From: Henriciella sp.
GTDB lineage: Bacteria; Pseudomonadota; Alphaproteobacteria; Caulobacterales; Hyphomonadaceae
Direction: 5' to 3'
Assembly: GCF_029936995.1 (NCBI RefSeq)
Contig: NZ_JAPYRE010000007.1
Coordinates: forward strand, 62,001 to 126,000
Length of the DNA: 64,000 bases
Of this stretch, positions 36,190 through 63,409 are shown in pieces (within the stretch, counting starts at the first letter, position 1; each line of letters opens with the position of its first letter). The notes beneath the pieces are model-generated. The model had not been told where the DNA came from. It did no database searches and worked only from the letters and a program-made list of their open reading frames with translations. The position numbers and the translations under genes were made by a program.

Positions 36190-36205
36190 GGGTCTGTTCC
36201 TTCTT

Positions 36206-42681: not shown

Positions 42682-42803
42682 ACCCGTCTCCTCTCACCAG
42701 GCGCCCGCTGAATTCCCAGCAGCCACGGGCGAACCTCACACACCACGCGCGTCTCGACCCGGTACAAAGGGCGCCTGAAAATCGATGTACAGAGAGGGCG
42801 TTA

Positions 42804-42841
42804 GGCAGGGCCTGGCGCCAGGCCTTTGATCTTGCCCTGCC
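42804..42841. other. Nested inverted repeats, candidate oriT
   Basis: GGCAGGGC at 42804-42811 and GCCCTGCC at 42834-42841 are inverted, and between them lies a perfect 16-base palindrome, GGCCTGGCGCCAGGCC (42809-42824). This sits in the only larger gap between the relaxase start and the TraF gene, the usual oriT location. No nick site can be named. Confidence 0.4.
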
Positions 42842-42900
42842 GGGTCCGAAATCCTGCCCCTGGCCCACGCTTCTATTCCCTTGCATGGCCTTGCCGCGCT

Positions 42901-43631: not shown

Positions 43632-43757
43632 GTTGTCCGTCCTTTCCTGGTTTGCGGATGCCGCAAATTCTTGGACAGGCGTGCTGGAAACTGGAGCCGT
43701 AAAATGCGGGAAGGCGATTTTTCACCCTGTAATTAAGCCTTTCCGGAAACGCAGAAA

Positions 43758-43785
43758 GCCGCACCGGGACGGAACCCGGTGCGGC
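43758..43785 (-). terminator. Intrinsic terminator of the DUF736 gene
   Basis: GCCGCACCGGG pairs perfectly with CCCGGTGCGGC across a 6-base loop. On the minus strand a TTTCTGC tail follows. It lies 24 bases beyond the DUF736 stop. Confidence 0.85.
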
Positions 43786-43808
43786 TTGTAGAGACTGGAG
43801 CTGGCGCG

Positions 43809-44132
43809 CTAGTCGCGGGCGTTCCAGAGGATGACATGGCGGCCTTTCTGGCCCTTGACCGGGGCGAGATTGGCGAAGATCCGGCGCGGGCCGATCTGCG
43901 GATCGGCGAGGGTCAGCGAGACATAATCGCGTCCCGAAACCTTTGATTTGCGCATCCAGCCGCCACCGATTTCCGTCGATGTTTCTCCGGCATAGATGCG
44001 GAAGTCCGGCTGGCCATCCTGGGCCTTTTCTGCATTTTTCTCGATGCGGATCGCAGCCGAGAGGTTCATCATTGCGAGTGTGCCTTCGAAGCCGGTCTTG
44101 GTTTCGCTGACATATCCGAGTGCGTTTGCCAT
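43809..44132 (-). CDS. DUF736 domain-containing protein
   Basis: The 107-residue protein begins with GYVSETKTGFEGTLAMMNLSAAIRIEKN and shows the DUF736 core PDFRIYAGETSTEIGGGWMRKSKVSGRDYVSLTLADPQIGPRRIFANL. DUF736 proteins are small conserved partners of alphaproteobacterial conjugative elements, and their exact role is unknown to me. A strong terminator follows. It belongs to the minus-strand mobilisation block but is separated by about 180 bases from the next gene. Confidence 0.9.
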   Translation of the reverse strand: MANALGYVSETKTGFEGTLAMMNLSAAIRIEKNAEKAQDGQPDFRIYAGETSTEIGGGWMRKSKVSGRDYVSLTLADPQIGPRRIFANLAPVKGQKGRHVILWNARD

Positions 44133-44727
44133 GGGGATCTCCTTTTCATTCCTTGGCTTGGTCTCCGGGAACCCCTTGTCCCCGTCGACGCCGGACCGGA
44201 AGGACGGCCAATCGGCTGGCCAGAACCTGAAAGGGCGCAGCGCCAGCGAAGCACCGGGGCGGTGACGAAATTTGGCTCGCGGTGAATGCGCGGAACGCGC
44301 AGAGGAAATTTCTTCGCCCGCCCCGGTTTCAGGGCCAGACGATTGCCGTCCAGGTCATGCGGCAAGAGACGGGACAAAGGGGGCTTTCGGGTGATGCCAG
44401 GATAGAAAAGAGGGCCGCATATGAGAGCCGCAGCGGCAGGTGTCAGAGCTATCCAGACAGGCAGAATGAACCGCGATCAGTATGGTCCCCTCTTTCGACT
44501 TGAATCCCCTCGCATGCGAATCTGGCTGCACGTGACCGTCCGGATAAATCCGGTCTGACGACGAAACCGCGGAACGGGTGGCACCCTGCGCCTTTACTGG
44601 CTATTCGAGGAAATGCATCCTTCGCACCCAACGCCACCAACGCGGCGCGGTCACGCCGTCTTCTGCATTCTTGAAACGTGTCGCGGGAACAGATATACCC
44701 TACAAAACATAAAACTGTAGGGTAGAC
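44133..44727. other. Noncoding stretch between DUF736 and the nucleotidyltransferase gene
   Basis: About 600 bases with no supported gene. Short open frames here (for example on the minus strand across 44449-44739) have no family pattern and overlap the regulatory palindrome. The last 30 bases contain the inverted repeat of the next gene; the rest holds the divergent promoters, if any. Confidence 0.5.
44697..44723. promoter_or_regulatory. Perfect 8-base inverted repeat upstream of the nucleotidyltransferase
   Basis: ACCCTACA (44697-44704), 11 bases, TGTAGGGT (44716-44723). It ends 4 bases before the ATG at 44728, so a protein bound here would block expression. This suggests autoregulation, as seen in toxin-antitoxin and AbiE-like systems, but no second gene is present. 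Confidence 0.55.
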
Positions 44728-45735
44728 ATGCAAAGCCATCCACTTTCAGTCCAGACTACCTATCAGGACCTTGTCGAGGCGCACAGGATGCGGGCGGTCT
44801 CGGACCTTGGCGGCACGCCCTTCCTGAAGACGGCGAACAGCAATCGATACTGGTATGCCCGCCAGAGGGTCGGCGACCGCGTCGTCGACAGATATATCGG
44901 CCCGGATTCGCCGGAATTGAGAAACCATATCGAGCGCGCCCGTGAAGCGGCGGAAGATACGCGGCAGTTCGAGCGCCGGTGCGCAAGCATGGTCGCACAA
45001 TTGCGCGCCGCAGGCGTTCCCGCGATTGATCGCGAAACAGGCAAGGTGCTCAATGCCATGGCCCGGGTCGGCACGTTCCGGCTGGGGGGAACGCTTGTCG
45101 GAACGCATGCCTTTCGCATGTATAGCGCAGAGCTGGGCGTCGGATTTCCCGAGGCGCTTGGCGTCACATCAGATGTCGATATCGCGTCCTTCGAGAACCT
45201 CAAGCTTGTCATTGACGATGAAGTCGATCCGTCTCTCGCAGAGACGTTCAAGGATCTGCAACTGACCCCCGCCCCCGGTCTGGACCGCAAGAACAGACCC
45301 ACACGCTGGGTCATGGCCGGCGGGGGGACCATGGTCGACTTTCTGGTGCCGAAAATGCTTGCAGAGAAGGATATTGTTCTCCTCAAGCCGCTGGGCGTCT
45401 ATGCGCAGGCGCTTTCGTTCCTGAACTTCCTGATTGCCGATCCGATCCCTGCGGTCGGCCTCTACCGGAGCGGCCTCCTTGTACAGATTCCGCGCCCGGA
45501 ACGCTATGCCATTCACAAGCTTATCGTTGCCGCCCGGCGCCACGAAACCTCTGCGGCGAAAGCCAGAAAGGACCTTGCCCAGGCAGATATTCTGATATCG
45601 ATCCTCTCCGAAGACAGGCCGTATGAACTCAAGGCGGCGTTCGAGCTTGCCATGGAGTCGGGGCCTCAATGGCGCGAAACCATCGAGGAGAGCCTCGATA
45701 AACTGCCTGACGCATCAGCCGCCTTGAAGGCCTGA
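44728..45735 (+). CDS. GSU2403-family nucleotidyltransferase-fold protein
   Basis: The 335-residue protein has a nucleotidyltransferase signature RLGGTLVGTHAFRMY (about 118-132) and a divalent-metal pair SDVDIAS with Asp149 and Asp151. The helical remainder reads YAIHKLIVAARRHETS. It resembles the GSU2403 group of MNT/AbiEii-like enzymes. The family is often on mobile elements, and roles in defence or toxin-antitoxin systems have been proposed. No clear partner gene is adjacent. A perfect inverted repeat ends 4 bases upstream of the ATG and suggests tight self-control. Confidence 0.75.
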   Translation: MQSHPLSVQTTYQDLVEAHRMRAVSDLGGTPFLKTANSNRYWYARQRVGDRVVDRYIGPDSPELRNHIERAREAAEDTRQFERRCASMVAQLRAAGVPAIDRETGKVLNAMARVGTFRLGGTLVGTHAFRMYSAELGVGFPEALGVTSDVDIASFENLKLVIDDEVDPSLAETFKDLQLTPAPGLDRKNRPTRWVMAGGGTMVDFLVPKMLAEKDIVLLKPLGVYAQALSFLNFLIADPIPAVGLYRSGLLVQIPRPERYAIHKLIVAARRHETSAAKARKDLAQADILISILSEDRPYELKAAFELAMESGPQWRETIEESLDKLPDASAALKA

Positions 45736-45955
45736 GCCGTACGCGGTTCAGGCCTGTTCAACGTACAAACCACGCTCGCATCGCACCTGAAGCCACCACG
45801 CTCACCACGATCATAGGCCTTGCTGTCTTGCTGAGATCGCCCCTCTCCGCACACGCGGATCATGTCTCGAGACAGCTTCAGGACGGGCGATTTTTTAGGC
45901 GTTTCTATATCGCACCAAATCTCGCCCGCCATCTCCACAGCCGGAAACATGAAAA

Positions 45956-45982
45956 CCGCCCGATGCCAGAGACACCGGGCGG
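45956..45982 (-). terminator. Terminator of the ParB-ArdA operon
   Basis: CCGCCCG (45956-45962) pairs with CGGGCGG (45976-45982). On the minus strand TTTTC follows. It lies 30 bases past the ParB stop. Confidence 0.7.
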
Positions 45983-46012
45983 CTCGCACTCTGCTGGACG
46001 GGAGACGCACCG

Positions 46013-48034
46013 TCAGGCAGCGTCGGACTGTGTCACGGCCTCATCATCGGCTGTATCCGTTCCCGTGCTCTCGAACAGACCCGAAATCCGCGCCCAAGCA
46101 TCGGCGGGCGGTGACCCGGCTCCATCGACAAGGGGGGTTGGCGGCACCTGCATCCAGCCCGGCCGCCAGTCGGGACGGGCCTCGCAACCTTGGCCACTTA
46201 TCCGGTTTGCGAGCACCTGTTTCTGCGCCTTTCCGGTCTCGGTGCGGCAGCTATCGGCCAGCGATTTCGTCGCAATATCTCCGACCATCGCATTGATCGC
46301 GCGCTTGTCGCGGGTCAGCTCGAAGAAGGTCTCGTCCGGTGCCCAGCAGGCTGCCAGGTCGGTGCTACAGACATGCAGTACGGCCTCGACAATGCCGTTT
46401 CCGGCTTCCAGCGTGCGCGCCATGACACTCGCCAGAACCTGCAACACTTCTGCGTCCGATAGGGCGAGCAAAGCCGAAAACAACTCGCACAGTCGATAGT
46501 CATCGCCATTGCGATGGAAAGCGGGATTGACGTTCAGCGCTTTCAACAGGGCGTCGGCATCAGCCGTCCGTTCTGCAAGGCTCGCCACCGATGCCGAGGC
46601 CTCCACGCTTGCCTGCGTCTCCTCTTTCCGGGTCCGCACTTCATGCGGGCGTACATCCCAGAGCGCACTCCCGGTCATCGCATGCGCGACCATCAGGCGA
46701 AGCGCAATGGCAGGCGATCCGGCAAGGCTTGCCTGTGCGGCGGCATGGCGGTGGAGCAAGATGTATTCCGCAAGCGGGCCGGACATTTCCGGGCGGATCG
46801 AGGCAGGCTCTGCTGTACCGCCCTTCTCTGCGCGATCACGTTTTCGCGCCTCCGCACCGGATACATACCCTTCATGGAAGGTCACCGTGCCGTCATGGCG
46901 GATTTCGACAAACACCTTGCCACCATCTTCCCGGTCACACCGGACATGGTCCCAGCGGTGGAAATACGCCCCGCGTTCGAGACAGACGACATCGGCCCAG
47001 CCTTCCGCAAGATAGGCCTCTATGCGGGCCGCGACGGCTACTGACTGCGCCTTCCAGAACTGGTCCGCATCGGCGAACACGCCATGCTCCCCGAACAGGT
47101 CAGCTGTGACTTGTCCTTCATAGGTGTCGAGGTCGAACAGCGCCTTGTCGGTGGTGATGGCTGTGCCGCCCGTCACCCATGCCCGGCAGGAACGCCCCAT
47201 CGGCGCACGTTCGTTGTCGCTCTGCCAGAGGCGTAACCAGTCCGCCTGCTGGTCCGGCGTCGCAAGCGTCAGCGCCCGGATCGTCTCGCGGTCAATCTCA
47301 TCTGCGGCATAGAGCTTGCGGATAGGATCGGCGAGTGAGGCGAGCGCCAGCACGCGCCGCACAAGCAGTCCGGTCACCCCGAAGAAGGTCGCGATATCGT
47401 CCACCGCCCTGCCCTCGTCATGCAACCGCTTGAAGGCGTCATACTGCTCCATCTCGGTTGCCGGAAGGCGTCCGACATTCTCGATGACGGAAGCCGCGAT
47501 TGCGCTCGCCGCATCCTTTTCGGGCATGACCGCGCACGGGACGAGTGGCGTCTTGCCGGTCTCCTTTTCGAGTTCCTTCAGGGCGAAGAAGCGGCGGCGT
47601 CCGGCGATCACGCCATAATATTTGCCTTCGCGCCGCACCAGCAGGGTCTGGCGAACGCCCTTTTCGCGGATCGACGGCAGGATGTCGGACACGTCCGGTT
47701 TTTTGCGGCTGTTACGCATGTTGAGCTTCGAAATCCGCAGTTCATCAAGCGGGATATGTTTCAGGTCGGGCTGTGCCATAGGGGTCTCCTTTTCTGGCGG
47801 GTAAAGCGAGAGACCGAGCGCCCATGCCGGGTCTCTCCAGTTGATCTTGGTGTAGGGAAAGCCATCGCCGTCGCGGGAGGGTTCGGGGTCGGTCTCGCCC
47901 CAATCATAGTCCCGGAGGCTGATCGCGGGCGCGCGGCCCTCGACCCAGATTTCAACAATCCGGGCCTCGGCAATGACCAGCGTCAGCCGGGGGCGCGGGC
48001 CGAGTGCTTCGACGAGGGAAAGCGCCGCGCTCAT
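46013..48034 (-). CDS. ParB/RepB/Spo0J family protein with an extra N-terminal segment
   Basis: The 673-residue protein contains a ParB-type N-terminal domain starting near residue 86 (MAQPDLKHIPLDELRISKLNMRN), the box II-like GVIAGRRRFFALKEL and an HTH region around FGVTGLLVRRVLALASL. A long C-terminus of unknown fold follows. In mobile elements such proteins often regulate or stabilise rather than partition. The first 85 residues are an unrelated open segment (MSAALSLVEALG...), whose ATG overlaps the previous gene's stop. A good ribosome site (AGGAG) also precedes the internal start at 47779. Either one fused protein or two starts are possible. Confidence 0.82.
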   Translation of the reverse strand: MSAALSLVEALGPRPRLTLVIAEARIVEIWVEGRAPAISLRDYDWGETDPEPSRDGDGFPYTKINWRDPAWALGLSLYPPEKETPMAQPDLKHIPLDELRISKLNMRNSRKKPDVSDILPSIREKGVRQTLLVRREGKYYGVIAGRRRFFALKELEKETGKTPLVPCAVMPEKDAASAIAASVIENVGRLPATEMEQYDAFKRLHDEGRAVDDIATFFGVTGLLVRRVLALASLADPIRKLYAADEIDRETIRALTLATPDQQADWLRLWQSDNERAPMGRSCRAWVTGGTAITTDKALFDLDTYEGQVTADLFGEHGVFADADQFWKAQSVAVAARIEAYLAEGWADVVCLERGAYFHRWDHVRCDREDGGKVFVEIRHDGTVTFHEGYVSGAEARKRDRAEKGGTAEPASIRPEMSGPLAEYILLHRHAAAQASLAGSPAIALRLMVAHAMTGSALWDVRPHEVRTRKEETQASVEASASVASLAERTADADALLKALNVNPAFHRNGDDYRLCELFSALLALSDAEVLQVLASVMARTLEAGNGIVEAVLHVCSTDLAACWAPDETFFELTRDKRAINAMVGDIATKSLADSCRTETGKAQKQVLANRISGQGCEARPDWRPGWMQVPPTPLVDGAGSPPADAWARISGLFESTGTDTADDEAVTQSDAA

Positions 48035-48513
48035 GTCGCGGCCCAAGGCTTTAGCGTCATGGCAAGGCGCTGGGCGGCCTCCCGGCCCGTTATCAATGCG
48101 TCAGTCAGAAGCTCATTGGCGACCTGAGTGAGATAGGCATTGTCCGAGCCGGGATAGTTGACCTCAATACCCCAGAGGCTCGCGGCATGTGGCGCGATCA
48201 GGATGTCGTCCACGCGAACCGACAGCATGATCCCGCAATAAAACCATTCATCCGTCTTCCAGGCCTGCATGACAGCTTCGGCCTGTTTGAGAGCGGCGTC
48301 ATAGCGCTGGCGCGGCTGTCGCCCGGCGCCGATAAATCCCGGATCGCCGATATCGAGTGAAGGCCAGAACCCGTCCTGCCGCTCGTCAGGGCGGTCGGAA
48401 CAGTCATCGCGCACGATGCGCGCGGTAACCGTGAAGCCCTGCGCGTCACACTGGATGGTGTCGCCTTCACAGGCGAAGCTGTCGAAATGCTGTGTGAATG
48501 TCATGGCGCTCAC
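48031..48513 (-). CDS. Unrecognised 160-residue protein in the ArdA operon
   Basis: The 160-residue protein is acidic to neutral, with DDCSDRPDERQDGFWPSLDIGDPGFIGAG in the middle and WFYCGIMLSVRVDD further on. I do not recognise a family. It overlaps the ParB-like gene (4 bases) and the ArdA gene (4 bases), so the three form one tightly coupled operon. That context suggests a role in element establishment, such as anti-restriction, but nothing in the protein shows it. Confidence 0.7.
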   Translation of the reverse strand: MSAMTFTQHFDSFACEGDTIQCDAQGFTVTARIVRDDCSDRPDERQDGFWPSLDIGDPGFIGAGRQPRQRYDAALKQAEAVMQAWKTDEWFYCGIMLSVRVDDILIAPHAASLWGIEVNYPGSDNAYLTQVANELLTDALITGREAAQRLAMTLKPWAAT

Positions 48514-51869: not shown

Positions 51870-53276
51870 GTGGCACTGCGGCCGGCAGAAGGCCGGGCAG
51901 AAACAGACAAGGAAACAGCAGCCGCAGCGCCAGAAACCTGGCGCGATTGCATGCGCGCAGGCATGGAGCTTGCCCGGACAGGTGAGCTTCACCTCGCGGT
52001 CAGCTGCTTCGACGCGGCAAGACAGACACGCTCTGATCATCCGCAAACCCTTCATACATGTGCCAGCACGCTCCTGCGGGCCGGTAAGACGGATGCGGCA
52101 TGCCGCGGTTTCAGTCAGCTCATTCAGCTGGTCCCGGAATTGCCCTCGGCCTGGCACGGGCTCGGGCTGGCCCGCCATGGGCGCGGAGAGATTGACGAAG
52201 CGCTTGGCGCCTTCCGTCAGGCGGCAAGGCTCGATCCCAAAGCCTGGCGCTCCTGGCAGTCCATCGCGGACATCACACCAGACGAAGACGAGCGGATCCT
52301 TGCGATCGGCCACGCCGCCGACAGCCTGGAAGCCCGCGCCGGAGACCCTCGCACAAAACCTGACATCATCCTTCGCGTCTGCAATGCGCTGGCCGACGCA
52401 CACAGGTTCGAGGATGCTGTCATTTTCGCTCGAAACAATCTGTCACGCTTTCCGGATCAGGCATTCGCGCACGAACGAATAGGCCATTGCCTCTATGCAG
52501 CAGGGGCTTTCCAACCGGCCTTCGAACAGCTGAAGCGTGCACTCGCCTGTACAGCCTGCCCGACCGCGGCACCATCAACCCACAATCATGGCTTCGACCC
52601 CGGCAAGGCAACAGAGGCGCTCAACGAGGTCTGCACTATACTCTCAGCAGCCGGTCTCGTGCCTTTTCTGGCCGCCGGCACATTGCTGGGTTTCATCCGC
52701 AACGGCCAACCCCTGACCCATGACCGGGACATCGATATCGGTGTGTTCGCTGATGAAGCTGCGCCGGGTATCGCGGCCATCGTCCGTCAGCACCCAGCCC
52801 TCATGCTGGAAAGGCGCGCTCGCCCCGGCGAGCGCTATTTCGCGCTGACGCACAAGGGCATCGGCGTCGACATCTTCCTCTACGAGAAAACAGCCCGCCA
52901 TGCGCTTTGCGGCTTCAGCCATCATCCGGGCGATATCCAGTGGCGCTTCACAGACTTCCGGCCCATCAAATCCCGCTTCCAGGGTCTGACCTGTCACATC
53001 CCGGAGAGCCCGGAGCGCTATCTCACCGAAACCTATGGGCCTGACTGGCAGATTCCAGACCATGGTTTTGCTTCGGCGATCAGCTCGCCTGCCCTCTACA
53101 AGACGGATGCCTTCGCCCGGGCCTGTTACAGCGCGGCCCGCGCCAGACGCGCCCTGAAGGCTGGCGACCGGGGTAAGGCGCGCGCCCTGATCAACCAGTC
53201 CCCCATTCCAGTTCCCCTCCAACCAGACATGCAGGATGCAAGCACCGATGAGATGAACAGACAGAGCCGCCGTTAA
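51870..53276 (+). CDS. TPR-repeat protein with a LicD-family nucleotidyltransferase domain
   Basis: The 468-residue protein starts at a GTG. Residues about 25-225 are helical tetratricopeptide repeats, for example LVPELPSAWHGLGLARHGRGEIDEALGAFRQAARLDP. A LicD/fukutin-type domain follows: FLAAGTLLGFIRNGQ (267-280), the metal pair DRDIDIG (285-291), a further acid in GVDIFLY (Asp334), and ERYLTETYGPDW near residue 382. LicD proteins transfer phosphocholine or phosphosugar groups. It lies 173 bases upstream of the lasso precursor in the same direction, so it may be a tailoring enzyme that uses its TPRs to hold the peptide. This is inference. Confidence 0.82.
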   Translation: MALRPAEGRAETDKETAAAAPETWRDCMRAGMELARTGELHLAVSCFDAARQTRSDHPQTLHTCASTLLRAGKTDAACRGFSQLIQLVPELPSAWHGLGLARHGRGEIDEALGAFRQAARLDPKAWRSWQSIADITPDEDERILAIGHAADSLEARAGDPRTKPDIILRVCNALADAHRFEDAVIFARNNLSRFPDQAFAHERIGHCLYAAGAFQPAFEQLKRALACTACPTAAPSTHNHGFDPGKATEALNEVCTILSAAGLVPFLAAGTLLGFIRNGQPLTHDRDIDIGVFADEAAPGIAAIVRQHPALMLERRARPGERYFALTHKGIGVDIFLYEKTARHALCGFSHHPGDIQWRFTDFRPIKSRFQGLTCHIPESPERYLTETYGPDWQIPDHGFASAISSPALYKTDAFARACYSAARARRALKAGDRGKARALINQSPIPVPLQPDMQDASTDEMNRQSRR

Positions 53277-53449
53277 ATCGTCAGCGTTTTCAAGCCTCCC
53301 GATCGCGCACAGCTGATCGGACAAGAAGCTTTGCGTATCCACCATAACGCCTTGTTTTTATTACGAATCTTTGGTTGACTCCCTCTACTCAAGAGGTCAC
53401 ACTCAAGGCGCTGCCAGAACGGCGGCGTAACCTCAGAAGGAGAAAGACC

Positions 53450-53587
53450 ATGAATACCAGGACAGACGAATACGTCACCGAAGACGAGTTCGAGCCAATC
53501 GAACTCGGTACGGTTTCCGAGGAAACCCGCGGCGGTCAAGAACTCGGTGTCGAGTTTGCCAACGGGCCGAATTCCCGGATCGCCTGA
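53450..53587 (+). CDS. Lasso peptide precursor
   Basis: The 45-residue precursor has a good ribosome site (AGGAG) upstream. The leader (1-27) ends in EETR, with Thr at -2, the conserved residue recognised by the protease, and FEPIELG resembles the leader motif bound by the B1 domain. The core (28-45) is GGQELGVEFANGPNSRIA, where Gly1 and Glu8 would close an 8-residue ring. The tail has Phe9, Asn11, Ser15 and Arg16, of which Arg16/Ile17 are candidate plugs. My hand-computed monoisotopic mass for the folded core is about 1796.88 Da. It lies just before the fused leader-binding/protease and cyclase genes, which makes the assignment strong. Confidence 0.88.
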   Translation: MNTRTDEYVTEDEFEPIELGTVSEETRGGQELGVEFANGPNSRIA

Positions 53588-53602
53588 CCCGTATCAAGGA
53601 GA

Positions 53603-53626
53603 GGGGGAACGCAAGTTCCCCCTTTT
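53603..53626 (+). terminator. Terminator/attenuator between the lasso precursor and its maturation genes
   Basis: GGGGGAAC (53603-53610), tetraloop GCAA, GTTCCCCC (53615-53622), then TTTT. It lies 16 bases after the precursor stop. It would stop most transcripts after the precursor and so make much more precursor than enzyme, as in other proteobacterial lasso clusters. Confidence 0.9.
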
Positions 53627-53665
53627 CCCCGAACCCATGGAAGAGCCATAGCCGAGGCGGCACGG

Positions 53666-54367
53666 ATGAACAGCCAGTACTATCTGCCGGATGACGTTCA
53701 TGTGTGTGCCTGCGGCACAATATACATCATCCTTGACGCGGTGAATGACAGGTATCTGTGTCTGACATCCGACCAGTCATACCTGTTCGCGCAGCTTGCA
53801 GCCGCCGACGGCCATGTTCCCACATTCTCGAAAGCAGGCCAGCTGGCGAACCGGCTAGCTGATCAAGGCATTCTTACACCCCGCCATGCGGCGGGGCATC
53901 CTATCGCCCACCGCACATTCCCTGCGGCGGCATATTCGATCACCGACCGGCATCCGGTTTCCCGGCCGCTCCCCCACTGGAAACACACACCGCATTTGAT
54001 GCTGGCCATTGCGATATGTCTTGCCCTGCGAAAGGCAGGACGTAGACATATCGCGCGATGCGTCCACGCTGCCCGTACGTGGAAAGCCGGCATTCCCGGC
54101 AATAGCGACACGTCCCGAGACCAGGTGCTCGCCCTGACGGAAAGCTTTCATGCGCTGACACCCTATTTCTTCACAACCCAGGACGCCTGCTTCTTCAGGA
54201 GTCTTGTCCTTCTCCGCTTCCTTTCGAGCTTCAATATCTCAGCCGAGTGGGTGTTTGGTGTGCGGCTTGCCCCGTTCGATGCGCATTGCTGGGTCTCACA
54301 TCGCGGGATTCTTCTGAACGAAACTTGCGACAAGGCGGCAGAGTATCAGCCGATCATGGTCGTATAG
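53666..54367 (+). CDS. Lasso peptide leader-binding domain fused to a transglutaminase-like protease (B protein)
   Basis: The 233-residue protein joins an N-terminal PqqD-like RiPP recognition element (about 1-75) to a cysteine protease of the McjB/transglutaminase type. Cys175 in TQDACFFRSLVL and His207 in FDAHCWVSH are catalytic candidates. The third residue, normally Asp twelve positions after the His, is Glu219 here. The protein binds the leader, cuts before Gly1 of the core and hands the core to the cyclase. It starts 78 bases after the precursor stop, beyond the attenuator, and its stop is one base before the cyclase ATG. Confidence 0.9.
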   Translation: MNSQYYLPDDVHVCACGTIYIILDAVNDRYLCLTSDQSYLFAQLAAADGHVPTFSKAGQLANRLADQGILTPRHAAGHPIAHRTFPAAAYSITDRHPVSRPLPHWKHTPHLMLAIAICLALRKAGRRHIARCVHAARTWKAGIPGNSDTSRDQVLALTESFHALTPYFFTTQDACFFRSLVLLRFLSSFNISAEWVFGVRLAPFDAHCWVSHRGILLNETCDKAAEYQPIMVV

Positions 54368-54368
54368 A

Positions 54369-56195
54369 ATGAGTGCTTTCTTCGCCATGATCTGGGAAGC
54401 GGAGAATATGAAAGCCGCCGAGCAGGCTGGTGTCATCGAAACACGCCTGCATCATCATTTAGGCAGATCCGTAAGCTCATGCACCGCAGAGGGCTTACGC
54501 GTTTATGATCTGCATCCGGCATCAACCAGCCCGGGATTGATCGAACTCCGGCCGGTCAATAGCCAGCCTTCCGGCGCCGTCTTCGGCACACTCTTCAAAA
54601 ATCGGACAGACCTCGTCGCGGGTCCACCTTTGACTCAGTTCGATCCCTCGGACAGTGCGCACCTCATGACATCTGCGGGCAGCGCCCTGATCTCGGACTT
54701 CTGGGGAAGTTATGTCGCAGTTCTGAGAACGCCCCAGGGCGTGGCCGTTCTTGCGGATCCGACCTCGTCCATACCCTGTTTCTATAGCAACGCCGGCAAT
54801 GTCACACTTGTCTTCTCACACCTGGAAGCGTGCGAGTTTCTCGATCGGACACAATTCTCCATCAACTATGACTTCATCCGTGCGCTGCTCGTCTATGACA
54901 AGATCCAGAACGGGCAGACCGGCCTGAATGAAGTGCATGAACTTGCGGGCGGGCACCGTCTGACCGTTACCCGCCAAGGCCTTCATGTCGAGCAGCTGTG
55001 GGACCCGCGCAAGACTGCGCGCAGACCCTGCGAGGAGGCGGAACCCGCGGCTGCTTCGATACTGCGGGACACGATAGAATATGTCGTGCATTCGAGGGCT
55101 AAAGCCTGTCACGGCGGTATAACCCTTAATCTCTCGGGCGGCCTGGATTCAGCGATCGTGGCTGCGACGCTCGGCAGACATTCCTCTTTGACCCGGGCCA
55201 ACGCCGTCCACTTCGTCCTGCAATCTGAAGATCCATCTGAGCTGGCGTATGCGCAGGCAGTCGCCAGTCATGCCGAGATCGGTCTCGAAGAGGTTGCGGT
55301 TACGCCGCAGCGGACGCTGCCGGGTCCGGCAGATCATCCTTTGTCGGTACGCCCATTCCGCAGCTTCCTCGGACAGGATCTCACAACCCACCTTGCCGGG
55401 CTGGCGCAACTGGAAGGCCGCACGATCTTCACAGGCCAGGGTGGCGATCACCTGTTTCTCGAAACCCGCAGCGCGCTCGGCTTCGCCGAATACCTGCAAC
55501 ACTGTGGTCTGGGCAGACAGGCCCGCATGGAGCTTCTCAACTCGGCCCGGCTTTCCGGCCTCTCCATCTGGCAGGCGCTTGGCAAAACCTTCGCCACGAC
55601 ATTGAACAGCTTACGGAATGGCGATGGCGCTCATGGTATTCTCGACCGCAGGACCCGGATGAACCAGAACGACCATGAGACACTCGATCCGGCAGCCCTG
55701 TTGCCGGAATGGGCCAGCGACAGGCAAGGTCTTCCAGCCGCAAAGTTCGGCCAGATCGCCAGTCTGGTTCACATGTTCCAGATCCGCAGCGGGCTTGCAT
55801 CGCTCCACTCCCGGCCGGTTGTTCACCCGCTGATTTCCCAACCGCTTATCGAACTCTGCCTGCGGCTGCCCACCTATCTGCTTTGCACTGACGGACAGGG
55901 GCGCGGGCTGGTCCGCAAGGCCATGGCCGGCCTGGTTCCGGATCAGGTTCGGCTCAGACGCTCGAAAGGAGACGCCTCCCGATTTTTCATCGACCAGCTG
56001 GATAGCCACCGCGAGATGATCGCTGAGGTGATCCGGCATGGCGAGCTGGTCCGTCATGATCTGCTAGATCCGGCAGATCTGGATATATTTCTCGGGCGCG
56101 AGGAATACCGGCACCAGACATTCGGGCGTATGCTGCTCATCCATTACGCCATTGAGGCCTGGCTCCAGTCATGGAAGCAGGTGGGGCGACACTAG
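54369..56195 (+). CDS. Lasso peptide cyclase, asparagine-synthetase-like (C protein)
   Basis: The 608-residue protein resembles AsnB with a degenerate glutaminase-like N-terminus (no Cys2) and a C-terminal synthetase domain. The PP-loop is LNLSGGLDSAIVAATLG near residue 254. GQGGDHLFLE is the nucleotide-binding region, and LRRSKGDASRFFID lies near the end. It adenylates the side chain of Glu8 and joins it to Gly1. It follows the B gene after a single base. The end overlaps the convergent isopeptidase stop by 4 bases. Confidence 0.92.
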   Translation: MSAFFAMIWEAENMKAAEQAGVIETRLHHHLGRSVSSCTAEGLRVYDLHPASTSPGLIELRPVNSQPSGAVFGTLFKNRTDLVAGPPLTQFDPSDSAHLMTSAGSALISDFWGSYVAVLRTPQGVAVLADPTSSIPCFYSNAGNVTLVFSHLEACEFLDRTQFSINYDFIRALLVYDKIQNGQTGLNEVHELAGGHRLTVTRQGLHVEQLWDPRKTARRPCEEAEPAAASILRDTIEYVVHSRAKACHGGITLNLSGGLDSAIVAATLGRHSSLTRANAVHFVLQSEDPSELAYAQAVASHAEIGLEEVAVTPQRTLPGPADHPLSVRPFRSFLGQDLTTHLAGLAQLEGRTIFTGQGGDHLFLETRSALGFAEYLQHCGLGRQARMELLNSARLSGLSIWQALGKTFATTLNSLRNGDGAHGILDRRTRMNQNDHETLDPAALLPEWASDRQGLPAAKFGQIASLVHMFQIRSGLASLHSRPVVHPLISQPLIELCLRLPTYLLCTDGQGRGLVRKAMAGLVPDQVRLRRSKGDASRFFIDQLDSHREMIAEVIRHGELVRHDLLDPADLDIFLGREEYRHQTFGRMLLIHYAIEAWLQSWKQVGRH

Positions 56196-58843
56196 TCGCG
56201 AGCACGCGGCGTATCCTCGTCCGGAGTGAAGATACCGCTTTCTTCGAGAAACCCATCGATCCGCCTCCAGAAATCGCGGATATTATCAGGCGATGAGGGA
56301 CCATGCCCTTCGCCCCAGTAGCGGACATAACGCGCCTCCTTTCCAGCCCGGTAAAGCGCGCCGAACATTTCGTCATATTGCGCCATGTCGAAATAATCGA
56401 AATCGCTGTGGACGAGCAGCACGGGTGCCGTGATGTCCGCCGCGTTCGCGACGGGGCTGGTTCGCGCATAGGCGGCGGGGTTTTCAAGTGCACTTTCGCC
56501 AAACCCGAACGGACAGTAATGGCTTGGCCCTTCCATGGCGCATTCATAGCGCCACCTGTTATCGCCGCCATTCTGGTCGAGATGAAAATACCGCATCAGC
56601 CCGCGCGCGCCAAAATAATGACTGAAATAATCGGCCCAGCCATTGACCGATATCACGGCGGCAAGCCTGTCCGACTGTGTCGCCGCGACCAGGGAGGCAA
56701 TTCCGCCCTGGCTGAAGCCGTAAAGCGCAATACGGCCGGGATCGGCATAGCCCTGCTCTACCAGCGCGCCGATTGCCTGATCCAGGAGATTCCCATACCC
56801 GGCGAGCGACCCCTCCGGCGTGGAAGCGAGATCGAGAGGCAGGGCGGGACGAAAGTAGATAAATCCCCGGGCGCTCCAGAGATCATCCAAAACGGCCCCG
56901 GCCCGGGCGGCATCTTCAAGGGTCTTACACCTCCCGCCTGTTCCCGTCGGGTAGACTTCAACCAGAACCGGATAGCGTTTCCCGCTTTCATAGCCGGGCG
57001 GCAGAAGGAGACAGCCCTGCATGGACCTGGCCGGTTGCTCCCCTGACGGATCCTCCAGGGTGTAGGAAACCGGCCGGTCAACCGGATGATTTATGCCGTT
57101 GAGATGCTCATTGATACGTGCCAGCTCCTCAACACGCCCGTGCCCCCGGATGAGAAGCAGACGCGTCGCAGCCCCCTCCTTCAGCGTCGCGACCATGGCC
57201 CCGGCCGCCCGGGACGCGGCAAGAACCCTCGCCCCGGCAATGCCGACTGGCTGGAGTGCGACAGCATTGTCAGTCCCGTCAAAGTTGACATGAACAATGG
57301 CGCCATCGCCCTCCACATCCGGCGTCTCGACAATGAAGTCCGCTGTATCCTGCAAGGGGTAGCGTATCAGCGGCGAGCCGAGGCGGAACTCGTTCGACCA
57401 GCTGTGCGCCATGTTTGGCCGATAGGTCAGCGGGCCAGTGATTTCGATACCTTCCGGCAGAATAGGGTCTACAGGTCTCTCCGTCCCAAGCCGAACCACG
57501 TTCGTCCCAGATATGATCGTAATCGACCGGTCACCGGCGTGGAGCAATTGCCCGGCCGGGCTGTCGAGCGAAGCAGACAGGTTCGAGATCGTGCCGCCCG
57601 GACCGAGCAGGTACCAGTCGAGCCGCTCCTCATCTGCGTCTCGCGCCAGCACGGCAATACCTTCATCGAGCAGCGCCGCACGCGCCGGACCCGCCCACCA
57701 CTTGTAATCAGGATCCAGATGATTGGTTGCGAGAACCAGCGCGCCATGGTCCCGGCACCCGGGTCTAAGCGCCGCGGTATCGACAATGTAGAAACACCCC
57801 TCTTGCGGGGTTTCCTGGCGGTCCCATCCGAAGACGGCAAAGCGCCGGCTGTCCGGCGACCAGGTCAGGGAATGAGGATCGATGTTAAACGGACCATTGA
57901 AGACGTCGGTCTTCCCCGTCTTGAGGTCGATCAGCCGCAGCCCGTAGCGCCGGTCGAATACCGGATGCGTCTCGTGTGCCACAGGGCGGGCATCGGGGGG
58001 CGGACGCCGGCGTTCCCCGGTCCGCGCAGCAATCAGGTAACGGCGATCCGGCGAGACACGCACACCTGCAAACCGCCCTTCTGCCACAAGCCTTGTTGTT
58101 CCGGAGGAGAGATCAAACTCGACAAGTCGGCCGGACGCCCAGTCTTCGGACCGGTCGCGCCCCGTGCTCACCGCTTCCGATGCTGTTACCCCCTCGCCGG
58201 ACCATGCCTTGTTCCATTCGCGCCAGAGGAACCGGCCAGCCGTGCCGCGACTGCGCATCTCGGAGCCTGGGAGGTCGGGGTCGCGCACCGGCACGACGAA
58301 GCGATCATTCGACGTCCAGACAAGGCGTTCATTATACCTCGCTCCGGCGACATATCTGTCGCGTATATCAGGCATTTCAGAGAAGCGGACACAGTCGTCG
58401 CGCCCCGTGCGGCAGACGACCAGGCGATGCCGACCCAGCCTGTGTTCAATCGTCACGACCCGGCTTCCATCCGGAGAGAACCCGAACAGGAAGTTCGTCG
58501 CGTCCGGATCGAGGCCAGGTTGAAGCCGCGCAGGTTCAGAACCGGCCATATCCCTGACCCAGAGCTGGTGTCCGCTCAGCCCATAGGCCCGCAACCAGTA
58601 GGAATAGTCAGCCAGTGTCTCATAGGCGGGCACGAGATTGTAGGCGAGCCACTTGCCATCCGGCGAAAAGGCCGCCTCACCGATCCCTTCGATCATCAGT
58701 ACGTCATCAAGGGTCAGCAGGCGGCGACCTTCATCTTCACCGGTCCCGGCACGTGCCGCAAAAGGATCAGCAAGCAGGCAAAGCAGCCCGGTCACAAAAA
58801 CCAGACGGACCATCTCCGCCCGAAACAGGAAACGGGAACTCAT
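56192..58843 (-). CDS. AtxE2-type lasso peptide isopeptidase (S9 family)
   Basis: The protein has 883 residues from the ATG at 58843. A signal peptide (VRLVFVTGLLCLLADPFAARA) puts it in the periplasm. A beta-propeller fills the middle. The C-terminal hydrolase has Ser711 in GFSQGG, the acid in HSDFDYFD (Asp814 or 816) and His847 in GEGHGPSS. AtxE2 relatives hydrolyse the isopeptide bond of imported lasso peptides. It lies next to the receptor and faces the biosynthetic genes, the usual layout. It is longer than my memory of AtxE2, so a propeller extension is possible. Confidence 0.88.
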   Translation of the reverse strand: MSSRFLFRAEMVRLVFVTGLLCLLADPFAARAGTGEDEGRRLLTLDDVLMIEGIGEAAFSPDGKWLAYNLVPAYETLADYSYWLRAYGLSGHQLWVRDMAGSEPARLQPGLDPDATNFLFGFSPDGSRVVTIEHRLGRHRLVVCRTGRDDCVRFSEMPDIRDRYVAGARYNERLVWTSNDRFVVPVRDPDLPGSEMRSRGTAGRFLWREWNKAWSGEGVTASEAVSTGRDRSEDWASGRLVEFDLSSGTTRLVAEGRFAGVRVSPDRRYLIAARTGERRRPPPDARPVAHETHPVFDRRYGLRLIDLKTGKTDVFNGPFNIDPHSLTWSPDSRRFAVFGWDRQETPQEGCFYIVDTAALRPGCRDHGALVLATNHLDPDYKWWAGPARAALLDEGIAVLARDADEERLDWYLLGPGGTISNLSASLDSPAGQLLHAGDRSITIISGTNVVRLGTERPVDPILPEGIEITGPLTYRPNMAHSWSNEFRLGSPLIRYPLQDTADFIVETPDVEGDGAIVHVNFDGTDNAVALQPVGIAGARVLAASRAAGAMVATLKEGAATRLLLIRGHGRVEELARINEHLNGINHPVDRPVSYTLEDPSGEQPARSMQGCLLLPPGYESGKRYPVLVEVYPTGTGGRCKTLEDAARAGAVLDDLWSARGFIYFRPALPLDLASTPEGSLAGYGNLLDQAIGALVEQGYADPGRIALYGFSQGGIASLVAATQSDRLAAVISVNGWADYFSHYFGARGLMRYFHLDQNGGDNRWRYECAMEGPSHYCPFGFGESALENPAAYARTSPVANAADITAPVLLVHSDFDYFDMAQYDEMFGALYRAGKEARYVRYWGEGHGPSSPDNIRDFWRRIDGFLEESGIFTPDEDTPRARD

Positions 58844-58930
58844 CGGGTCTCTCCCCTGATGCATGGCGAAGGCCCTCTGCGTCACGATGCTTTCCAGCGC
58901 GCGACAAAAGGGGCCTCGGCCGATGACACT

Positions 58931-61687
58931 TCAGAACGTCTTGCGAACTTCGACGCTGACGAACCGGCCGATCGGAGAGGCATTGGCCGGATCGTAGCCG
59001 GTCAGGGCGAACCCGCTCAGAGGCGGCGCACTCGGCGGCGACTCATCGAACAGATTGGTCGCCGAAAGATTGAAGACCGTGCCCGATAGCCAGCCCGTCC
59101 GGTCCTCGCCAAAATCGTATGACAGCGAAAGGTCGGCGGTAATCCATGAGCCGATCCGGCGCGCATCGGCGGTACCATCAATCCTGTAGTCATCGGTATA
59201 GTTGACGAAGAAATTCCCCGTAAAACCACCCCTGGAGAGACCAAGATGCGCGCGCAACTGCAGGTCAACCGGATTGTAAAGCGTGTTCAGTGTCTCGACC
59301 GCCGGCGTCGTCTCTGCGGCCTGCTTCACGAAATCGATGATGTAGTTCGCATTGATCCCGGCCGAGACACGCCCGATTTCCGCATCCGCGGAATAACCAA
59401 GCTGGAGGTCGATCCCGCGCGTTTCGGTCGACGCCAGATTGCGTGTCAGATTCACCCTGTTGATGAAGCCGATATTCTCGACCGCGGTCGCGCCACCAGC
59501 CAGAATGACCGGGCGGCTGAGCGATGCCAGCAGGGCATCGATCTGTACGTCGGTGGGGAAGAAGATCACCGTTCCAGCCGGGAAAAGATCAGGATTGTCA
59601 AAAGCCAGGCCGGGCGCGAAGTTGGAATTCAGATTGCCCGGAATGGGTGTCGCACCGAGACGGTCCTCGAAATTGATATCGTAATAGGAACTGCTCAGAG
59701 ACCAATCGTGTACGCCCGAGCTCACCTCATAGTCGATCCCGGCGGTGAAGGTTCGCGACGTCTCTGGCTCAAGATCGGGGGCTGTCCCGTTGGCCTGGAT
59801 ATAGTTCACACCGGCCAGTGACGGATCTGGCAGCTCTATGCCGAATATACCGCGTATGAAATCATAGGGCAGCACGCCTGCAATCCGGTCAAGCGCACCG
59901 GCCTGACCCAGCGCCGGGGGCGCGAAGGATGTGCTGTAGGAGCTTCTGAGGTTCAGCCCGTCCACGGGTGCCCAGAGGAGCCCGATCTTGGGGTTCGACG
60001 TCGAGCCGAAGTCGGAATAGTCGTCGATACGGCCAGACAGGTTGAGTTCGACGCGGTCCGCCAGCGGCTGGGCGTTGCCCGGCCCGATCAGCGGAAACAG
60101 GACTTCCGCATAGACAGAGGAAACATCACGCTCACCGTCCCGCAGCGCGGGCGATCCGGCCTGCTGGACCCTGAAACGCTCCTGGCGGACCTGTCCGCCC
60201 ATGGCTGCCCTCACCTGCCCGCCCGGCAATTCGAACAGATCGCCATTGAGCAGCACCCCGGCTGACCAGAGATCGGACTCGGTCTTCTGCCGCGACGGAT
60301 CCCGCGGCACCGGCGACAGGATCCGGGACGTCCGGTCATTCCGGATCTGGCTGTAATTGCCGTCCAGCGACAGGATCCAGCGGTCAGAAAACCGGTATTC
60401 CGCACCGAGATTGAAGGTCAGGCTTTCAGACCCGATCCTGTTGCGGCCAGCGGAGGCAAAACTGCCAATGCCGACCGCCCGGCTATCAACCTCGCGGTCG
60501 GAATAAAGAAGTGTCGATGAGAAGTCGAGCCGGCGCCCCACCTCCTGATTGGCGGACAGGACCAGGCTGTTGCGGGTCTGGGCGGGGAGCAGGTCGAACA
60601 CATCGGTAAGTGTGATCGGGTCGCCGCCCGACAAGGGCGGGACGGCAATATCCGGGCGCTCCGACAGGGTCAGGTTTCCACGGTCGGAATATTCATAGAC
60701 AGCGAGCAGGTTCCCGCTGTCCCACGCGGTCCCGGCGGACTGGCTGAAGCGATATGCGTCAAGATCGCCGCTGGTCACCGTTCCGTAGCGCAGCGCAGTT
60801 TCCGCCCCTTCAAAGTCATCCCGAAGGACAAGATTGATCACCCCGGCCACGGCATCGCCGCCATAAATGGAAGAGGCCCCGTCGGTCAGCACCTCGACCC
60901 GTTCAAGGGCTGAGACCGGAATGAGGGAGAGATCGACAAAATCCCCTATCGTTGAGGTCGGAGCGACCCTGTTGCCGTTCAGCAGGGTCAGCGTCGCCCC
61001 GGATCCCAGCCCGCGGAGATTGGCACCGGTGCCATAAGTATTGTTCGATTGTGAGTTGCGGTCATTCGGCAGTCCCTGCCCGGCTGCAAACTCGGTCGAC
61101 CCGCCGCTGAAATTCTGCGGCAGCTGGCGGATAAACTGTTCGGTCGAAGAGGCTGCCGACTGCAGCAGGTCCTCGCGGTCATAGACCTGTAGCGGAGAAC
61201 TCTCCGGCGCGAAGCCGCGCAGACTGGTGCCGGTCACCCTGACCGTATCGATGCGAAGCGCACTTTCCTGGTCCGTTTCAGTCCCGGCGGGTCCAGGGAC
61301 CTCCACAGGCGCGACGGGAGTCCGTTCGGGTGCTCTCTCGCGTCCCGGTACAGGTGCATCAGGCGCTTTCCTTACAATCAGCGCTTCACCGCCGCCACGA
61401 ACCGCAACCAGCCCGCTTCCGGCCAGAAGGCGTTCCAGCGCTTCTTCAGGCGAATAGTCCCCTTCGAGAGCCTCAACATCACGGCCTGCAACAAGCGGCC
61501 TCGAGAACATGATGGGCGTACCGGTCTGTGCGCTCAGCGCCTGCAGGGCTTCAGCCAGCGAGGCTGCCTCGATCGTCACCTCTGTGCGTTCGCGCCCATC
61601 CTGCGCGGCAGCCGTGCCAGCGCCTGCGATCATCGATACGGCCACTGCGCCAAGCAGTTGCCGTCTCAGGCCAGTCTTCATCCCCAT
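58931..61687 (-). CDS. TonB-dependent receptor with an N-terminal STN signalling domain
   Basis: The 918-residue protein has a signal peptide (LLGAVAVSMIAGAGTAAAQ) and a secretin/TonB short N-terminal domain (about 35-110: EALQALSAQTGTPIMFSRPL). A Pro/Glu-rich linker, a plug with GANLRGLGSGATLTLLNGNRV, VEVLTDGASSIYGGDAVAGVINLVLR, and a barrel ending in SVEVRKTF complete it. The STN domain signals to FecR, encoded 118 bases upstream. Next to the isopeptidase, this is the likely lasso peptide receptor. It belongs to the TonB-FecR-sigma regulatory relay. Confidence 0.92.
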   Translation of the reverse strand: MGMKTGLRRQLLGAVAVSMIAGAGTAAAQDGRERTEVTIEAASLAEALQALSAQTGTPIMFSRPLVAGRDVEALEGDYSPEEALERLLAGSGLVAVRGGGEALIVRKAPDAPVPGRERAPERTPVAPVEVPGPAGTETDQESALRIDTVRVTGTSLRGFAPESSPLQVYDREDLLQSAASSTEQFIRQLPQNFSGGSTEFAAGQGLPNDRNSQSNNTYGTGANLRGLGSGATLTLLNGNRVAPTSTIGDFVDLSLIPVSALERVEVLTDGASSIYGGDAVAGVINLVLRDDFEGAETALRYGTVTSGDLDAYRFSQSAGTAWDSGNLLAVYEYSDRGNLTLSERPDIAVPPLSGGDPITLTDVFDLLPAQTRNSLVLSANQEVGRRLDFSSTLLYSDREVDSRAVGIGSFASAGRNRIGSESLTFNLGAEYRFSDRWILSLDGNYSQIRNDRTSRILSPVPRDPSRQKTESDLWSAGVLLNGDLFELPGGQVRAAMGGQVRQERFRVQQAGSPALRDGERDVSSVYAEVLFPLIGPGNAQPLADRVELNLSGRIDDYSDFGSTSNPKIGLLWAPVDGLNLRSSYSTSFAPPALGQAGALDRIAGVLPYDFIRGIFGIELPDPSLAGVNYIQANGTAPDLEPETSRTFTAGIDYEVSSGVHDWSLSSSYYDINFEDRLGATPIPGNLNSNFAPGLAFDNPDLFPAGTVIFFPTDVQIDALLASLSRPVILAGGATAVENIGFINRVNLTRNLASTETRGIDLQLGYSADAEIGRVSAGINANYIIDFVKQAAETTPAVETLNTLYNPVDLQLRAHLGLSRGGFTGNFFVNYTDDYRIDGTADARRIGSWITADLSLSYDFGEDRTGWLSGTVFNLSATNLFDESPPSAPPLSGFALTGYDPANASPIGRFVSVEVRKTF

Positions 61688-61805
61688 ATTGCCCCTCCGG
61701 ACGTGTTGTTGAATCCGGCTGGCACCCCGGTCGGGCCCAGCTCGATAAATTCAACAAGCCGTCCGGCCTGCCATGCAGAAATTCTCCGAACCGCTGTCTG
61801 TGGGG

Positions 61806-62774
61806 CTAATCCCGCTCCTGGCGCCGCAGCGTGATCGTGCGGCCGGACATGTCCGCCGTCACTGGCAGGAAGAGCTCGAGGCTCTCGGCAAAGTCCCGCT
61901 GCTGGCCCGCCGGGAAGCTGCCGCTGATCCGTTCTGCCGCCAGGGCCTGATCCCCGATCCTGATCGTCACACTGGAGTAGCGGTTCATCTCGGCCACAGC
62001 CTCGGCGAGGGTCGTATTATCGAACTGAACCAGCCCGGACGTCCACCGCCCGACACTTTCCAGGTCGACTTCTGAAACCTCGACACCGCCATCCGCCTGC
62101 ATGACAAGCTGGTCCCCGGGCTCCAGCACGCTCCCCTGCCCTGCCCCGTCCGAAGCCCCGACCCTGACCGATCCCTCGACCAGCGTGATCGCAACCTCAT
62201 CCCCGCCAGCCTGAACATTGAACCGTGTCCCAAGCGCCTCGGTCCGGCTGGCGCCGGCCATGACCACAAAGGGCCGGGCCTCGCCTGCGACATCAAACAA
62301 GGCCTCGCCCCAAGCGAGCTCTATCTCGCGCGCGTCTTCTCCAAGCCTCACCTCGACCCGGCTTGCGGTATTGAGCGTGACCGTCGATCCATCGGCGAGC
62401 ACCACCTGCCGAACCTCGCCAATGTCCGTCACATAAATATCCGGTGCCACTGGTTGAGCAGCCGGCCAGACCCCCACAACCACAAGCCCGATGAGCACAA
62501 GCGCGGCGATCCCGCCAAGCCAGCCCACCCATCCCGGTACGCGGTCCTTCCGGGACACCTCCCGGTCTTCCCGCGCCCGCCGGCCAAAGCCTGAACGGTC
62601 CATGGCCACCAGGGAGCGTTCGATCTCACCAAAGGCTGCGGCATTCGCCGGATCGCTCTCCCAGGCCTGGAAGGCTTCCCAGGTCTCGTGCGAAAGGCCG
62701 GGCTCCTGCAGCTCGGCATACCAGTCCGCCGCGGCTTTCAGCCGCTCCGAATATCTGTCCCGATGTGCCGTCAT
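61806..62774 (-). CDS. FecR-family anti-sigma factor
   Basis: The 322-residue protein has a cytoplasmic DUF4880/N-terminal anti-sigma domain (about 1-70: ADWYAELQEPGLSHETWEAFQAWESDPANAAAFGEIE), one membrane helix (about 83-102) and a periplasmic FecR domain (TDIGEVRQVVLADGSTVTLNTASRVEV, then LGTRFNVQAGG). It holds or activates the sigma factor and receives the signal of the receptor's STN domain. A GTG at 62783 gives a GTGA overlap with the sigma stop; the ATG at 62774 has a better spaced site. Confidence 0.92.
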   Translation of the reverse strand: MTAHRDRYSERLKAAADWYAELQEPGLSHETWEAFQAWESDPANAAAFGEIERSLVAMDRSGFGRRAREDREVSRKDRVPGWVGWLGGIAALVLIGLVVVGVWPAAQPVAPDIYVTDIGEVRQVVLADGSTVTLNTASRVEVRLGEDAREIELAWGEALFDVAGEARPFVVMAGASRTEALGTRFNVQAGGDEVAITLVEGSVRVGASDGAGQGSVLEPGDQLVMQADGGVEVSEVDLESVGRWTSGLVQFDNTTLAEAVAEMNRYSSVTIRIGDQALAAERISGSFPAGQQRDFAESLELFLPVTADMSGRTITLRRQERD

Positions 62775-62779
62775 GAGCT

Positions 62780-63409
62780 TCACCCTGCCGGGTTCGCTTC
62801 CCGGCCTTCCAACCTTGCGAGACGTTCGGCAATCTCGGCGAGTGCCGTCGCAACCTCACTCTTGGCCGTTCTCGGTGAAACTGACAAGCGCCGCGCGATC
62901 TCATCATAGGTGAGCCCGTCATAGCGGTGGAGCCTGAGCACTTCGCGGCGCCGCCACGGCATGGCGGCAATGGTCTGCTCGGCGATGGCGAGAAGCTGGG
63001 CATTCATGAGCTGTTTCTCCGGCGTCACGGTCCGCGCACAGGCCAGCGCCTCGCCAACACTCCCGACTTCGACAGAGGCCTGCTGCTGACGCCTGTGGCC
63101 CGACTTCAGATGATTGACGGTCAGATTGCGCAGGGTCGTGAACAAGAGCTTGCGAAGTTCCTCACCCGCCCTGTCCGGATAGGCCCGCCCCACAGCAACA
63201 AAGGCATCCTGCACCAGGTCCTCGGCATCCGCCCGGTTCCCCACCCGCAACAGTGCCAGACGCACGAGTTGCCTTCGATGATGGTGAAAGATACTCCGAA
63301 GATGTTGGTCTGACTGATCAGAGTTGAACTCACCTGAATCCTCACTTGGACCCCGCCGAAATCGCGACAGTCTCAGTTCCGTTTTCGTGGTATTAACGGG
63401 GCTAACCAA
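62780..63409 (-). CDS. ECF-type RNA polymerase sigma factor
   Basis: The 209-residue protein has region 2 (LVRLALLRVGNRADAEDLVQDAFVAVGRAYP, about 47-80) and region 4 (EQTIAAMPWRRREVLRLHRYDGLTYDEIARRLSVSPRTAKSEVATALAEI). It is of the FecI kind, with the FecR anti-sigma gene overlapped or nearly touching downstream. Its targets should include the receptor and perhaps the lasso genes. Its start faces the XRE regulator across a 25-bp palindrome (63426-63450). Confidence 0.92.
   Translation of the reverse strand: MVSPVNTTKTELRLSRFRRGPSEDSGEFNSDQSDQHLRSIFHHHRRQLVRLALLRVGNRADAEDLVQDAFVAVGRAYPDRAGEELRKLLFTTLRNLTVNHLKSGHRRQQQASVEVGSVGEALACARTVTPEKQLMNAQLLAIAEQTIAAMPWRRREVLRLHRYDGLTYDEIARRLSVSPRTAKSEVATALAEIAERLARLEGREANPAG

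Follow-up and report, generated by a model that had tools for sequence, protein, structure and literature searches.

The stretch of Henriciella sp. DNA analysed here (64,000 nt, hereafter the window; coordinates are positions within it unless contig C11 or C14 is named) contains a lasso peptide gene cluster headed by a gene that encodes a fusion of tetratricopeptide repeats (TPRs) with a LicD domain. On the forward strand, the TPR-LicD gene (51870-53276, 468 residues, GTG start, the exact start being unsure) is matched by the Pfam LicD and TPR models and encodes a TPR superhelix followed by a LicD domain of the type found in fukutin-related protein (FKRP; residues ~241-468), which makes up a candidate tailoring enzyme. 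It is followed on the same strand by the genes encoding lasso precursor A (53450-53587, 45 residues), the B protein (53666-54367, 233 residues in a single chain with a C-terminal B2 cysteine protease) and the C protein (54369-56195, 608 residues, a lasso macrolactam cyclase of the asparagine synthetase type with an SGGLDS motif). The reverse strand carries genes encoding an S9-family peptidase (56192-58885, 897 residues, with a signal-peptide-like start by eye), a TonB-dependent receptor with an N-terminal STN domain (58931-61687, 918 residues), a FecR-type regulator (61806-62783) and an extracytoplasmic function (ECF) sigma factor (62780-63409), all four scoring above their Pfam cutoffs. The open reading frames of all seven genes from A to the sigma factor are intact, as stated in the preliminary description of this DNA, and the profile searches agree. 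That description had called the system at 53450-63409 complete; the genes it named are present, but the conserved TPR-LicD gene, which lies outside this interval, had been missed. Searches of the whole window yielded neither a tRNA nor an Rfam match at gathering scores.

Lasso precursors are recognised by a Thr at position -2, a Gly at position 1 and a Glu or Asp at positions 7-9 of the core. In precursor A, the leader extends to R27 and the core GGQELGVEFANGPNSRIA has 18 residues with Thr at -2, Gly1 and Glu8, so that its length, Thr and Glu8 are as first described; the ring is predicted to join G1 and E8, and the tail contains N14-S15-R16. The mass of about 1796.88 Da, previously computed by hand for the folded core, was recomputed as 1796.8805, with [M+2H]2+ at 899.4475. 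The nearest profiles are Subterisin (PF24178, 26.6 bits, just below the cutoff of 27) and benenodin (NF033522, 20.2 bits, well below the cutoff of 33). The suggested link to the astexin and caulosegnin families is neither shown nor excluded, no model for either being among the precursor profile matches in libraries that were not checked for containing one. The core was absent from the open-access literature searched, which is weak evidence of novelty given that scope, and the 28 cores collected from LicD clusters are all different once copies are merged. A new core sequence is thus ordinary in LicD-type clusters, and the novelty of the core was dropped as the main point.

The B leader peptidase and the C cyclase are both present with their catalytic residues. 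The B protein matches lasso_biosyn_B2 (NF033537) at 59.6 bits (cutoff 33) and Transglut_core3 of Pfam, and its residues C175 and H207, two of the B2 triad, are invariant in 6/6 proteins; of the fused leader-binding and protease functions first assigned to it, the protease is therefore borne out, and a leader-binding N-terminal part is presumed from the length. The C protein matches Asn_synthase at 98.4 bits (cutoff 21), with lasso cyclase models matching below their cutoffs. Five further loci (L009, L011, L012, L017 and L018) carry homologous clusters in which the A, B, C, S9 and TonB receptor genes recur, indicating that the arrangement is more than chance. The locus is a genuine lasso peptide cluster, ordinary in its basic parts.

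The TPR-LicD gene lies directly upstream of the precursor gene, on the same strand, in the window and in the same five loci, which are the closest clusters found: L009 (C14, ~19-32 kb), which is a second cluster of this type in the window's genome, with core GLPGIQDEFGSGSANSRVQ and a collinear conjugation-type flank, L011, L012, L017 (Hyphomonas chukchiensis) and L018 (a Rhodobacterales metagenome-assembled genome, MAG). A search of the window's own genome with PF04991 returned two genes, one per lasso cluster. Across 398 genomes of the order, the LicD profile found 37 places at E 1e-15 or better, comprising 34 strong ones (E 4.4e-69 or better, 24 genomes) and 3 weak ones (E ~1e-16) that cover the TPR part. 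Of the strong places, 33 adjoin a lasso precursor and the remaining one (G363:C488) stops at a contig end; this linkage rules out LicD as a chance neighbour. In genomes G130 and G216, the B gene is short and is followed by an IS4/5-type transposase gene, with no C match in the fetched DNA, and no C match was found at G293:C5; LicD, the precursor and its tail motif are kept in all three.

Members of the clade of LicD lasso clusters occur in the window's family, to which Hyphomonas belongs, in two other families of the same order and in the one Rhodobacterales MAG. Locus L049 of genome G148 is contained letter for letter in L017, and on this sequence identity G148 is taken as H. chukchiensis or a near twin, and the window's family as the Hyphomonas family. 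In another family, two genomes each carry a pair of LicD lasso clusters on a single contig, separated by ~13 kb (L060/L064 in G171, L062/L065 in G147). In the third family, the LicD lasso clusters L105 and L106 are decayed, with a short B gene, an IS4/5-type transposase gene behind it and no C match. A location of such clusters on known plasmids was rejected: the cyclase is matched by 28 plasmid records and TPR-LicD by 8, the two complete tallies of organism names have no genus in common, and every LicD match covers less than 80% of the query. The open-access literature held nothing relevant joining lasso peptides with LicD, or LicD with phosphocholine and lasso, and nothing on lasso peptides in Hyphomonas. 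A TPR gene in a lasso cluster is not new in itself, since the available text of PMC12670498 mentions a TPR protein gene for BGC 38, a lasso cluster from metagenomic data.

The LicD clusters also share a motif in the precursor tail. To compare cores, 28 distinct ones from LicD clusters (copies merged) were set against 26 from 18 LicD-free loci, that is, loci without a tblastn match to LicD in the fetched stretch. The latter were hand-picked from lower-scoring cyclase places, each yielded at least one core, and non-lasso frames that fitted the pattern by chance were removed by eye; L061, whose core has NSR and whose short contig does not hold LicD, was excluded from the count. Glu8 was found in 28/28 LicD-cluster cores and 12/26 LicD-free cores. 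A tail pair of Ser or Thr followed by Arg or Lys ([ST][RK]), which is S15-R16 in the window, was found in 26/28 and 0/26, respectively (Fisher 2e-13, a value that does not count independent events, because the LicD clusters form one cyclase clade and the cases are not independent). The pair lies 6-8 residues past E8 in 25 of the 26 motif cores, while most ring residues vary, and 2000 tail shuffles gave a mean motif count of 5.3 and a maximum of 13.

TPR-LicD matches Pfam LicD (PF04991) at 29.5 bits over the full length and 32.4 bits for the domain, above the cutoff of 22.6. The motif AGTLLG...R...DRDID is intact in the window, where its DxD aspartates are D285, D287 and D289, and is nearly or fully invariant in 6/6 proteins. 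A profile of the LicD domain only, used because a search of the Protein Data Bank (PDB) with the full sequence was swamped by TPR proteins, matches human FKRP (6kaj, E 8.6e-5) across the catalytic motif, establishing kinship with this family. FKRP uses cytidine diphosphate (CDP)-ribitol, and the LicD fold is of the nucleotidyltransferase type.

Beyond the window's own genome, samples of the class (385 genomes) and the phylum (398 genomes) yielded five homologues with weaker matches (E 2e-27 to 1e-34). An IspD-family (cytidylyltransferase) gene adjoins 4/5 of these distant homologues outside the order, and in L115 and L118 it is fused to a short-chain dehydrogenase gene. No lasso genes were found in the fetched stretches of L115-L118. 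These neighbours suggest, by gene context, CDP-alcohol donors for the wider TPR-LicD homologue family. L115 adjoins a sigma factor gene. L118 adjoins a flagellin gene, where a phospho-alcohol modification of flagellin is conceivable; nothing joining LicD, tetratricopeptide and flagellin was found in the open-access literature.

From these sequence comparisons, the product of the cluster is proposed to be a lasso peptide with a G1-E8 ring that carries a LicD-installed phospho-alcohol on tail Ser15, with a probability of about 0.5. TPR-LicD would bind its presumed substrate, the linear precursor, through the TPR superhelix, and the LicD domain would move a phospho-alcohol from a CDP-activated donor onto the hydroxyl of Ser15 within N-S-R, the likely acceptor, forming a phosphodiester. 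The [M+2H]2+ calculated for a core so modified is 960.9518 with phosphoethanolamine, 976.4491 with glycerol-phosphate, 981.9753 with phosphocholine and 1006.4597 with ribitol-phosphate. In the predicted order of steps, B would then cut off the leader, and C would close and thread the eight-residue ring. After the peptide exits the cell, the TonB receptor with its STN domain, FecR and the sigma factor may detect and re-import it, with the S9 protease possibly opening or degrading it. More tentatively, at somewhat short of even odds, the whole lasso clade (28 distinct cores, 26 with the motif) may bear a phosphodiester-linked alcohol on a tail Ser or Thr, installed by TPR-guided LicD/fukutin-type enzymes.

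Several observations weigh against a LicD-modified tail. L018 has NSQ, L082 has LicD without the motif, and in L110 the motif lies only 4 residues past E8. The motif definition started as NS[RQ], from six cores, and was relaxed to [ST][RK] once the wider set had been seen. In the cyclase tree (L061 counted as LicD, no row from 9/49 loci, a very long branch for L082), the LicD clusters form one side of one branch (29/40 rows, support 97/89), and LicD and the tail motif may simply be co-inherited. The predicted structure of TPR-LicD has a moderate mean pLDDT of 71.8, and its best PDB matches in a structure search are TPR proteins. As for the donor, the fetched DNA on either side of the lasso LicD genes gave no IspD-like gene, and the window's genome gave two IspD matches, one strong and the other of 40 bits. 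Among the distant homologues, L096 has no IspD match within its 3.8 kb. The Pfam LicD cutoff is reached by L096, L116, L117 and L118, with L115 below it (18.8 of 22.6), and Pfam TPRs occur in L096, L116 and L117, with none in L115 and L118 at the limits used; these shortfalls slightly lower the confidence in a TPR-guided LicD modification.

An unlikely alternative is that LicD serves producer self-protection by placing a phospho-alcohol on a surface glycan or lipid, the tail motif being conserved for another reason. Surface polymers or lipids are the substrates of characterised LicD proteins, TPR-LicD scores 37.2 bits with a diacylglycerol cholinephosphotransferase model (NF045866, cutoff 225), and no ABC exporter gene was seen by eye in the cluster. 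However, LicD and the motif persist where C was not found and immunity would be less needed, and the TPR fusion suits a polypeptide substrate, both of which are weak arguments.

A second alternative, likewise judged unlikely, is that the N-S-R tail is conserved because the TonB receptor, the S9 protease or the cyclase recognises it, with LicD acting on another residue or being non-catalytic. As the LicD clusters are one cyclase clade with mostly similar TonB receptor and S9 genes, the motif could track any of these. Nevertheless, the tail motif is retained in L058 and L059, whose fetched flanks gave no S9 match, and in L064, whose S9 gene is unlike; it is absent from L074, L084 and L087, which are LicD-free and do have an S9 relative; and the LicD motif residues are conserved. 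Quite improbable is a nucleotidyltransferase activity, suggested by the LicD fold, that would place cytidine or adenosine monophosphate (+305.04 with [M+2H]2+ at 1051.9682, or +329.05) on the tail Ser, as FKRP kinship and the IspD-type neighbours of distant homologues favour phospho-alcohol transfer. The annotation of PsmN of pseudomycoidin as a nucleotidyltransferase (available text of PMC9266682) speaks for such an activity.

If LicD does modify the tail, lasso peptides would gain a new tailoring chemistry with a predicted acceptor residue and defined product masses, and LicD/fukutin-type phosphotransferases would be extended to a short peptide. If this holds for the whole clade, teichoic-acid-like or FKRP-like chemistry would have been moved onto a ribosomal peptide. 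The distant homologues beside IspD-type genes, one of them next to flagellin, hint at wider protein targets.

The S9 protein matches Peptidase_S9 of Pfam at 59.4 bits, and S725, D828/D830 and H861 are invariant in 3/3 proteins. Its best NCBIfam match is the AtxE2 isopeptidase model NF033523, at 42.5 bits against a cutoff of 400; its relatives in L009, L017 and L060 score 31.3, 46.6 and 38.3 bits with the same model. A PDB search at E 0.01 matched 13 sequences, none bearing the name of a lasso isopeptidase, and the predicted structure (mean pLDDT 48.5) is too poor for use. As an S9 peptidase with Ser, Asp and His but a score far below the AtxE2 cutoff, the protein labelled an isopeptidase in the preliminary description is a candidate lasso isopeptidase, divergent from AtxE2.

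Upstream of the precursor gene, a promoter -35-like TTGAC (53375-53379) and a stem-loop CGCTGCC-AGAAC-GGCGGCG (53409-53427) lie on the forward strand, the latter 34 nt past the start of TTGAC and near the expected 5' end of the mRNA. TTGACTC was found in 20/27 aligned LicD-cluster upstream regions, and the best stem starts 32-35 nt past the TTGAC anchor in 20/27. The stem sequence varies with the pairing kept (e.g. TGTCGC/GCGACA, GCCGTTG/TGACGGC, CGCTGCC/GGCGGCG); in the other seven regions (L060, L065, L067, L070, L072, L082, L110), the automatic anchor or stem is off or unlike. The best stems of all 27 sum to 169, compared with a mean of 123 and a maximum of 140 in 300 mononucleotide shuffles. 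The stem-loop perhaps stabilises the precursor mRNA.

Genes encoding a coupling protein (38661-40805), a relaxase (40747-42681), a DUF736 protein, a nucleotidyltransferase and a ParB-type protein occupy 38661-48046, ~4-13 kb upstream of TPR-LicD, and this block has a collinear counterpart beside the second lasso cluster, on C14 (75-81% identity). The nucleotidyltransferase gene of the block (44728-45735) is of the NTP_transf_8 family, with 81% identical DNA in the C14 copy. A 10.7 kb direct repeat flanks the lasso region (window 13098-23783 and C11:127176-137862, the latter in L089; 91.9% overall). It is a mosaic, with 100% identity at ~14.1-18.6 kb (~4.5 kb) and ~78-90% beyond 19 kb (the final 4.7 kb). 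The second copy is bordered by an IS3-like transposase gene, and an integrase gene (C11:142066-143271) and TrbE/VirB4-type and VirB8 genes are situated beyond the repeat. Either integration through homologous recombination or an error of assembly could lie behind the repeat. As to the mobile element first claimed for this region, relaxase and coupling protein genes lie nearby and have collinear copies at the second lasso locus, but no element ends were found. Further upstream (29653-37461), a sulphide/persulphide-type gene set was noted by eye only, with metallo-hydrolases, a SulP-type transporter, a quinone-reductase-like gene, an ArsR-type regulator and two peroxiredoxin-like genes.

Compared with known systems, TPR-LicD shares its domain and catalytic motif with the LicD/fukutin-related protein phosphotransferases. 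The acceptors of known LicD members are teichoic acids, lipids or glycans; the window's enzyme differs in its likely acceptor, a peptide, and in the TPR superhelix fused to it. The S9 protein resembles AtxE2-type isopeptidases (NF033523) in its family, in the conserved Ser, Asp and His and in adjoining a lasso cluster and a TonB receptor gene, but it stays far below the model cutoff and is 259 residues longer. All 21 precursors scanned match the profiles of both the subterisin and benenodin families (E up to 0.1); the window's own precursor differs in scoring below both cutoffs, in its extra TPR-LicD gene and in the conserved [ST][RK] of the tail. Paeninodin and pseudomycoidin, from Paenibacillus and Bacillus, are similar in having in-cluster enzyme genes and a tail Ser as the site: according to the available text of PMC9266682, the kinase PadeK phosphorylates the C-terminal Ser of the lasso precursor, and in pseudomycoidin, which has PsmK and the nucleotidyltransferase-annotated PsmN, PsmN further modifies the phosphorylated one. 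In the window, by contrast, the candidate Ser is internal to the tail and the enzyme is of the LicD/FKRP type fused to TPRs. By analogy with PadeK and PsmN, modification by TPR-LicD would be a variation on a known theme of lasso tail chemistry, with the LicD enzyme type as its new part.

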